Part shown: positions 54,615 to 57,304 of the stretch, piece by piece
How the letters are laid out: every line of letters starts with the position of its first letter
Numbering within the stretch: the stretch's first letter is position 1
From: Actinomycetospora lemnae
Lineage (GTDB): Bacteria; Actinomycetota; Actinomycetes; Mycobacteriales; Pseudonocardiaceae
Direction: 5' to 3'
Assembly: GCF_028737315.1 (NCBI RefSeq)
Contig: NZ_JAQZAO010000001.1
Coordinates: forward strand, 186,001-250,000
DNA length: 64,000 nucleotides
The notes under the pieces: model-generated
The model's database searches: none
Seen by the model: only the letters and a program-made list of their open reading frames with translations
What the model was told of the DNA's origin: nothing
Position numbers and translations under genes: made by a program

Positions 54615-55298
54615 TCACCGCTCCCGGGGCTCCCCGGGGACCCCGCCGCACCCGGCCCACACCATCGCTGCCGCCCGGGGCGCCCAGTCCTCCGCGAGCG
54701 CCTCCCCGCGCACCGCGTGCGCGAGCCACGAGCCGGTCAGCAGGTCCTCGGCCGTCGTGTGGTCGGCCGCCGCCCGCAGCGCGCCGGACTCGATGCCGGC
54801 GCGCAGGCACGCGCGCAGGCGCTCGCGCCACGGGTCGACGAGCCGGCGACGGATCTGCTCGCGCACCCGGGCATCGGTGTCGCCGACCAGGGCGATCGCG
54901 ACGAGCGCGGTGGCGTCGTGCTCCACCACGAAGCGCCGCAGGCGCGCGAGCTCGGTGACGAGGTCGGCGAACGGGTCGCCGGACGCGGCCACGGGCCCGC
55001 CGTCGTCGACCGTGGCGAGCGCCGCGACGGCGAGCTCGATCCGCCCCGCCCAGCGGCGGTACACGGCGGCGCGGGTCGTGCCGGCCTCCTCGGCGATCGC
55101 CGCGACCGAGAGCCCCGGGAGCCCGCCGCTGCGCAGGTGACGCAGGGCCACCTGCAGGACGAGCCGGTCGATCTCGGCGTTGCGGGGCCGGCCGGTGGTG
55201 TGACCCGCGCCGGTGCCTGCGCCGTCACCGTCGGTCGGCGGTGGCCGCTCGAGGTCCTGCTCGGTGCGAGGCATGCCGTGTAGGTGGCCCCCGGCCAT
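54615..55298 (-). CDS. TetR family regulator
   Basis: A 227-residue regulator. After a variable Gly/Asp-rich start, residues about 36-85 form the TetR DNA-binding domain (IDRLVLQVALRHLRSGGLPG, LSVAAIAEEAGTTRAAVYRR), then a helical C-terminal domain (DATALVAIALVGDTDARVRE, EDLLTGSWLAHAVRGEALAE). Start is ATG 55298 or 55274 (MPRTEQ). The first base of the gene touches a GATAC-N11-GTATC operator that recurs before the divergent gene, so it should regulate itself and that gene. Confidence 0.88.
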   Translation of the reverse strand: MAGGHLHGMPRTEQDLERPPPTDGDGAGTGAGHTTGRPRNAEIDRLVLQVALRHLRSGGLPGLSVAAIAEEAGTTRAAVYRRWAGRIELAVAALATVDDGGPVAASGDPFADLVTELARLRRFVVEHDATALVAIALVGDTDARVREQIRRRLVDPWRERLRACLRAGIESGALRAAADHTTAEDLLTGSWLAHAVRGEALAEDWAPRAAAMVWAGCGGVPGEPRER

Positions 55299-55321
55299 CG
55301 ATACACAAACGTGTCGTATCG
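55299..55321. promoter_or_regulatory. GATAC-N11-GTATC operator, copy 1
   Basis: CGATACA-N9-CGTATCG directly abuts the TetR start codon (ATG 55298, minus). It is nearly identical in arms and spacing to copy 3 (55488-55510). Likely the autoregulatory binding site. Confidence 0.7.
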
Positions 55322-55433
55322 CCGCGCTCCGTCACCATCCCGGGGACGACGAGTCGCTCTCACGACCGGCGACCGACCATTGGGCCGTCCGAGTGATGAC
55401 CGAGGTGCGCTTCCAGCGTCGTCGCTCGGGACT

Positions 55434-55448
55434 GATACAGAACGTATT
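55434..55448. promoter_or_regulatory. Related half-spaced site, copy 2
   Basis: GATACAGAACGTATT: the same GATAC and GTAT half-sites but with a five-base spacer and one mismatch. It lies between copies 1 and 3 and could be an auxiliary site; weaker evidence. Confidence 0.4.
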
Positions 55449-55487
55449 GCCTTCGACGCTGTGGCGAGGATAACGTTTGACCGGATT

Positions 55488-55510
55488 CGATACATGGCTG
55501 CTGTGTATCG
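55488..55510. promoter_or_regulatory. GATAC-N11-GTATC operator, copy 3
   Basis: CGATACA (55488-55494) and TGTATCG (55504-55510) with a nine-base spacer. It lies 47 bases before the ATG of the downstream plus-strand gene, so it should control that gene. Confidence 0.7.
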
Positions 55511-55556: not shown

Positions 55557-55913
55557 ATGATCACCAATCGGGATCTGGACGTCATCGGTCTGCCGTCCCT
55601 GCCCGCACCCGCGTCACCGCGCGACGAGGACGCGGCGGTGTTCGAGCTGGTGCGCGAGGCGCCGCCGTACCGCGACGGCTGGGTGCTGCTCTGCCGCCGG
55701 GGCGGGCGCGTCACCTGGTCGATGCCCCTGGCCCCGCGCGGTGCGGCGCCGCGGGTGCGTCCGGCCGTCGCCCAGGCCGTCGCCGTGCGTGTGCTCGACG
55801 AGCAGGGCGTGTTCGTCAGCGGGTGGAACCAGGTCGGCCCGGCCGACCCCGGCGACGACACCCCGCACTTCGTCGCCCGCCGGCCGCTCGGGACGACGGC
55901 GCTGCCCGTCTGA
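55557..55913 (+). CDS. Hypothetical protein under TetR control (118 aa)
   Basis: ATG 55557 has GGGGAGGA eight bases upstream. The protein has an extended N-terminus (MITNRDLDVIGLPSLPAPAS) and an alternating beta pattern (GWVLLCRRGGRVTWSMPLAP, VAQAVAVRVLDEQGVFVSGW, NQVGPADPGDDTPHFVARRP). It has no signal peptide or membrane helix and I know no family. Position 47 bases after an operator shared with the divergent TetR gene suggests it is that regulator's main target. Confidence 0.6.
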   Translation: MITNRDLDVIGLPSLPAPASPRDEDAAVFELVREAPPYRDGWVLLCRRGGRVTWSMPLAPRGAAPRVRPAVAQAVAVRVLDEQGVFVSGWNQVGPADPGDDTPHFVARRPLGTTALPV

Positions 55914-55993: not shown

Positions 55994-57304
55994 ATGGAGC
56001 ACCACGAGGTCGACGTCCTGGTGATCGGCGCGGGGGCGGGCGGCCTGTTCACCGCCGCCCGCCTGGCCCACCGCGGCTACCGCACGCTGGTGGTGGAGCG
56101 CCTCGACCGCGTCGGCGGCCGCGCCTCGAGCGAGGTGATCGACGGCTTCACGGTCAACAACGGCGCCATCGTCATCGAGACCGGCGGGATCACCGAGCAG
56201 ACGTTCGCCGAGGTCGGCGCGCGCTTCGACGTGCGCCCGGCCAAGCCCCCGATCCTCTACCGGATCGGCGGCAAGGACGTCGACGTCACCGGCGGCGGCT
56301 GGGGCTTCCTGCTGGGCAAGCTCACGCGCCAGGGCGCCAAGCTGCTCGAGGGCCTCGGCGCGGCCCGGACCGACGACGGGCTGCCCGAGGGCGCGCTCTC
56401 CACCGCCGACTGGGTACGGCGGTACACGGGCAACGAGAAGGTCCACGGGATCTTCCGCAACATGTGTGCGTCGATCTTCGCGGTGAGCTCCGAGGACCTC
56501 CCGGCGGCGGTGTTCCTGACCTACTTCACGCGACGCAGCGCGTTCAAGAAGTTCGGCTTCTGCCCCGAGGGCACGATCGGCGTCTGGCGCGCGCTCGCCG
56601 ACGCCGTCGAGGGCACCGGTCACGGTGAGGTCTGGCTCTCCAGCGAGGTCCGGGCCCTGGACCTGGGCGAGGACGGCACCGTCGTCGGCGCCACCGTCGT
56701 CCGGGACGGGCGCGAGGTGTCGGTGCGCAGCCGGGTCGTGGTCAGCGACGCGGGGCCCGCCGCGACCGCCGACCTCGTCGGGCGCGGCCGCCTGCCCGCC
56801 GACTACGCCGCGACCGTCGACACCACGCCCTGCGCGATGCTCGTCGTCAACTTCGCGAGCCGGGAGCCCCTCGTCGACGCCCCCGGGCTGCTGAGCTTCG
56901 CCACGACCCGGCGGATGTGCTACGTCGCGAACTTCACCGCGACCTGTCCGGAGATGGCCCCCGCGGGCTGGCACCTCTACAACGGCACCTCGGTGCCCGA
57001 GCCCGCGACCGGCGCGTTCGACGAGGAGCAGGAACGGGAGCTCCTGGACGCCGACCTCCGCGAGCAGATCCCCGGCTTCGACCGCGCCCGCGTGCTCTCG
57101 ACGACCGTGTGGCGCGACGCCTGGCCGCCGCAGCGCGCCGTCGCCGGCCACGACCTGCCGCACACCACGCCGATCGCGAACCTCTGGAACGTCGGCGACG
57201 CGGTCAAGCAGTACGCCAACGGCGGCACGACCGCGTGCGCCGAGACCGCGGCGCTGGTCGCCGACGAGATCGCGGCGCGGTTCCCGGTGGCGGCGCTGCG
57301 GTAG
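55994..57304 (+). CDS. Phytoene-desaturase/amine-oxidase-like FAD oxidoreductase
   Basis: A 436-residue flavoprotein. The N-terminal VLVIGAGAGGLFTAARLAHR and VVERLDRVGGRASSEVIDGF form the GxGxxG-E-GGR FAD motif of the CrtI/amine-oxidase group; the C-terminal LWNVGDAVKQYANGGTTACA provides the FAD-binding end. No carotenoid genes are nearby, so carotenoid desaturation is unlikely; an NAD(P)/FAD oxidoreductase of the acyl-CoA island is a better guess. ATG 55994. It is preceded by regulatory element A and converges on a ligase gene (six bases). Confidence 0.82.
   Translation: MEHHEVDVLVIGAGAGGLFTAARLAHRGYRTLVVERLDRVGGRASSEVIDGFTVNNGAIVIETGGITEQTFAEVGARFDVRPAKPPILYRIGGKDVDVTGGGWGFLLGKLTRQGAKLLEGLGAARTDDGLPEGALSTADWVRRYTGNEKVHGIFRNMCASIFAVSSEDLPAAVFLTYFTRRSAFKKFGFCPEGTIGVWRALADAVEGTGHGEVWLSSEVRALDLGEDGTVVGATVVRDGREVSVRSRVVVSDAGPAATADLVGRGRLPADYAATVDTTPCAMLVVNFASREPLVDAPGLLSFATTRRMCYVANFTATCPEMAPAGWHLYNGTSVPEPATGAFDEEQERELLDADLREQIPGFDRARVLSTTVWRDAWPPQRAVAGHDLPHTTPIANLWNVGDAVKQYANGGTTACAETAALVADEIAARFPVAALR

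Follow-up and report, generated by a model that had tools for sequence, protein, structure and literature searches.

TetR-family regulators of the QacR/AcrR type recognize long operators, which are bound by two dimers. In the tetR/tetA system, as outlined in PMC3511530, the two genes form a divergent pair separated by two palindromic operators that serve both promoters. For Mce3R, a TetR-like regulator, DNA looping has been proposed as a suggestion, according to the account in PMC11667970. In the window (the whole stretch of 64,000 nucleotides of Actinomycetospora lemnae DNA that we analyzed), a TetR-family gene is likewise divergent from a putative target, the gene of a 118-aa protein (p118), with two palindromic operators, termed O1 and O2, in between. 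O1 and O2 each keep a constant distance to conserved promoter-like blocks and may thereby cover both divergent promoters, which are putative here. The locus departs from the tetR/tetA layout, as far as that source describes it, in having longer operators (23 bp, the centres of the two arms being 16 bp from each other) at a distance of 189 bp, in its wider gap, and in that the putative target is a small protein without any match in Pfam, NCBIfam, or PHROGs rather than a recognizable efflux pump. The long palindromes resemble those of the QacR/AcrR type, in that a single dimer occupying neighbouring grooves would seemingly not span the distance between the arms; unlike in that type, no efflux pump lies beside the pair, and inspection of O1 and O2 by eye identified no consistent inner half-sites for a two-dimer mode.

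O1 (55299-55321, unstranded, CGATACACAAACGTGTCGTATCG) adjoins tetR, whereas O2 (55488-55510, unstranded, CGATACATGGCTGCTGTGTATCG) lies just 3' of the putative p118 promoter. Both read CGATAC-N11-GTATCG, with identical arms and identical N11 spacing, in agreement with the initial annotation. When the window was scanned for GATAC-N11-GTATC with at most one mismatch, we obtained 2 matches versus 0.19 expected, and 0 of 100 shuffled windows contained two or more. That annotation had also proposed a genome search, with a random frequency of the motif speaking against a circuit; in the 6.06 Mb genome (6,064,868 bases), exact GATAC-N11-GTATC occurs in 2 places, namely O1 and O2. The palindromes are real and far above chance. 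Five further places in the same genome match with one mismatch, and these were read as background because a reversed-pattern control gives 4; a wider regulon was rejected for the same reason. A literature search for the operator motif returned no match.

The comparison was extended to 18 Actinomycetospora genomes. A profile built from 12 operator sites of this locus and searched against them (E ≤10) gave 22 matches, with some sites counted once per strand. Every match falls within this locus, and the 8 genomes lacking the tetR/p118 pair yielded none. Because the profile was trained on these very sites and 150 candidates were scored per genome, so that weak distant sites could escape, this result bears on the absence of strong sites elsewhere more than on their presence here. 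Two exact GATAC-N11-GTATC copies were found off the locus in the 18 genomes (G015:C9:113061 and G010:C3:182949), versus 0 for the reversed pattern; they were treated as chance matches and not as further targets. Compared as sequence, the copy in G015 (L073:1501-1521, equivalent to G015:C9:113061-113081), a genome without the pair, partly resembles O2.

The product of tetR belongs to the TetR family according to domain tests, with Pfam matches to the N-terminal HTH domain (PF00440, TetR_N, 33.2 bits; cut-off 24) and to the C-terminal ligand domain (PF16859, TetR_C_11, 40.9 bits; cut-off 32); its binding to the operators is predicted. Its scores stay below the curated NCBIfam cut-offs for ScbR (26.2 against 150 bits), AcrR (20.3 against 271 bits), and MtrR (16.9 against 280 bits). 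The HTH/recognition helix, AGTTRAA[VI]YRRW, is invariant in 10 out of 10 orthologues save for one V/I exchange. The best sequence match among solved structures is PDB 2fq4, a TetR-family regulator (E 1.5e-14, residues 35-205), of which the present protein is not an orthologue. A survey of the literature on TetR in Actinomycetospora, judged by titles, gave nothing relevant.

The initial annotation placed tetR at 54615-55298, and the gene itself is upheld while its start is probably not: all 10 orthologues have a start codon (ATG or GTG) at the position of 55274, which is not the case at the position of 55298. Based on the Pfam domains, the HTH, and this conserved start codon, tetR probably extends over 54615-55274 on the minus strand, with the earlier ATG lying 24 bases too far upstream. 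We tentatively assign its promoter to 55281-55309 (minus strand), comprising TTTGTG (55304-55309, inside O1), a 17-nt spacer, and CACCTA (55281-55286), from which the start codon is about 6 nt further. These hexamers are far from consensus and the -10-like box varies as CACCT(A/T/G); the ACAAAC and AGGTG blocks on the tetR side are separated by precisely 23 in each of the 10 genomes. Because the putative -10-like box just precedes the conserved ATG/GTG, it fits the start at 55274 and suggests a nearly leaderless tetR transcript.

On the other side, p118 (55557-55913, plus strand) is a real gene, as indicated by its orthologues in 9 other genomes (59-92% identity) and by its codon-position mismatch rates (0.35 at position 3 versus 0.20 and 0.22). 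The protein has a conserved core, PLAPRGAAPRVRPAVAQAVAVRVL, and the N-terminus MIT(N/R)RDLD. As a strict sigma-70 scan found no promoter for p118, it is from conservation that we propose one at 55447-55476 (plus strand), with TTGCCT (55447-55452) as -35 and TAACGT (55471-55476) as -10. According to the alignment of the 10 genomes, both boxes are at a conserved distance in all of them, with a -35 consensus TTGCNN (G012 has TTGTCA instead) and a -10-like box that opens with TA and is situated 27-28 nt on from a CGTRTTG block; counted from the first base of this -10 box, the beginning of O2 follows at 16-18 nt in every case. A third, imperfect operator copy had been claimed between O1 and O2, and this we could not sustain. 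The candidate at 55434-55448 reads GATAC-N5-GTATT, with a spacing of N5 rather than N11. Only 5 out of 10 genomes (G000, G005, G010, G011, and G006) retain its GATAC arm, whereas its GTRTTG part, which overlaps the conserved -35 hexamer, persists in all 10. It was therefore rejected as an operator and is read as promoter sequence, perhaps a stray half-site.

A search of 100 relatives gave p118 matches in 12 genomes, of which 10 are close (59-100% identity, own genome included), with weak paralogues only in G009 and G015. Close tetR genes (65-100% identity) occur in the same 10 genomes, other tetR matches having at most 41% identity among the matches listed, and the divergent pair is thus common to the same 10 of the 18 Actinomycetospora genomes. 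All 10 contain the exact core of O2, while that of O1 is exact in six (G000, G005, G010, G011, G002, and G017), differs by a single arm base in three (G004, G008, and G012), and is degenerate in G006, which retains the gene pair and an exact O2. The O1 remnant of G006 (L017, ~180 bp upstream of O2) is a natural variant that bears on autorepression. It is thus directly observed that the sites exist, that they are rare and conserved, and that they co-occur with both genes.

The genes flanking the pair vary among the 10 genomes: SDR and oxidoreductase genes are found on the tetR side in 7 of them, and other direct neighbours in G004, G006, and G008. Since the genes beyond the pair differ, the operators track tetR and p118 and not the flanks, and the variation of the downstream genes points to the pair itself as the regulon. 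A FAD oxidoreductase gene at 55994 was considered as a second target and rejected, as it adjoins p118 only in G000 and G011; it is ~1.9 kb off in G005, G010, and G012, and a search around the pair did not reveal it in the other five genomes, some of which are represented there by short contigs. A short-chain-dehydrogenase-like gene directly follows p118 in G005, G010, and G012 (L061:5872-6624, L062:6773-7519, and L064:6754-7506, respectively) and is absent from that place in the window. The oxidoreductase is present in all 8 pair-less genus genomes, whose examined stretches, two of them short, contain no tetR or p118 match. A tree of the neighbouring oxidoreductase places the pair-bearing genomes to the same side of a branch, the support of which (44/88) is too weak to establish a single origin of the pair.

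We consider it highly probable that TetR represses both its own gene and p118 through O1 and O2, that a ligand relieves this repression, and that p118 is its main target. The protein encoded at 54615-55274 would bind the two 23-bp palindromes, which are of the same type; at O1, it would cover its own promoter on the -35 side, resulting in autorepression, and at O2 the first transcribed bases of p118, blocking RNA polymerase. Release of TetR by a ligand would then switch on mainly that one small protein. In this scheme, we infer the identity of the binding protein, the sense of the regulation (repression versus activation), the promoters, and the ligand. The circuit suggested by the initial annotation, with the 118-aa protein as target, is the best-supported reading: operators, tetR, and p118 travel together in 10 out of 18 genus genomes, and the sites hold their places at the two putative promoters although the surrounding genes differ. 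Two observations speak against it: the intergenic gap is longer than 200 bp (258 bp, or 282 bp if tetR starts at 55274), and G006 retains the pair yet has lost O1.

The width of the gap matters because, for the Streptomyces TetR regulators with gaps above 200 bp covered in the consulted portion of PMC3511530, three out of four had no control over the divergent neighbour, and the remaining one was an activator of it. By this precedent, TetR could activate p118, or control only itself with O2 serving another regulator, but we judge this improbable, as O2 is located 3' of the putative -10 box in 10 out of 10 genomes, which is a repressing position, and one motif is common to O1 and O2. It is very improbable that O2 functions at the RNA level, through a hairpin in the leader of p118, instead of as a DNA site; the transcript would indeed form a stem at O2, but shuffled sequences are as stable as the leader (z 0.31), and O1, with the same motif, is differently placed relative to its putative promoter. 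Repression of both genes by TetR remains our preferred reading, and the locus looks like an ordinary type of circuit, well supported comparatively, that would guard an unusual lineage-specific protein. As a switch with a single target and a precisely defined operator, it is open to testing, and it connects a small orphan protein with a sensor, the ligand of which could reveal the role of p118.

The distance between O1 and O2 is 189 bp in five genomes, 190, 191, 178, and 179 bp in four others, and 179 bp in G006 when counted from the O1 remnant. The classes of 189-191 and 178-179 bp correspond to about 18 and 17 helical turns, respectively, at an assumed repeat of 10.5 bp per turn that was chosen afterwards. 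The spacer is poorly conserved outside a central element and the promoter, its 20-base blocks dropping to 10-30% identity, and a rigid distance through such DNA suggests a DNA loop. In a clade of 7 genomes, the rate of length change on the tree is 4.0 for the 166-nt spacer versus 61.3 for the ~44-nt leader, which favours a length constraint in this clade and would be compatible with looping. When all 10 genomes are included, spacer and leader have similar raw rates (68.3 and 96.2, respectively) because of a shift by about one turn on one branch; the residual rate in phase is 4.0. Few independent length-change events underlie these values.

TetR dimers at O1 and O2 might accordingly be joined by a loop of ~18 (or 17) turns, with repression requiring both sites in phase. 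This would be a stronger version of the preferred explanation and not its opposite, and we regard it as possible but doubtful: the narrow range of distances despite spacer divergence and the rates in the clade of 7 argue for it, but the similar raw rates over the 10 genomes, the small number of events, the helical repeat picked afterwards, and the shorter distance in G006 despite its lost O1 argue against it. Moreover, the central element together with the promoters could suffice to keep the lengths constant. This element (55381-55396, unstranded, TGGGCCGTCCGAGTGA), identified from the 10-genome alignment midway between the operators, has a single exact match in its own genome and is possibly a site for another regulator. 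The fullest form of the idea, a phase-locked TetR loop of ~18 turns, possibly with a protein at the central element, that silences one genus-specific protein of a new small family, seems less likely still. The natural spacing variants bear on whether a TetR-family repressor loops DNA.

The fold of p118 was poorly modelled from the single sequence (pLDDT 39.6), whereas a four-sequence model (pLDDT 69.1) predicts, with low confidence, about five strands and one helix; this model had no fold match at E ≤0.001 in PDB or BFVD, and p118 had no match among plasmid and phage records. In a family-wide profile search, p118-like sequences were retrieved from 14 out of 297 genomes, 12 in the genus and 2, with weak matches, outside it. 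Weaker p118-like paralogues lie near GAF-ANTAR genes in G017, G004, and G191 (L085, L086, and L096; the Pfam search covered L085 and L096), and near a HATPase_c_2-like gene in G004 and G008. These neighbours hint at stress signalling, which we take only as a lead. The HATPase-like proteins near the paralogues (L022:946-1395, which the Pfam search covered, and L024 near 2226) begin with VITNRDLACIGL, much like the start of p118 itself, MITNRDLDVIGL.
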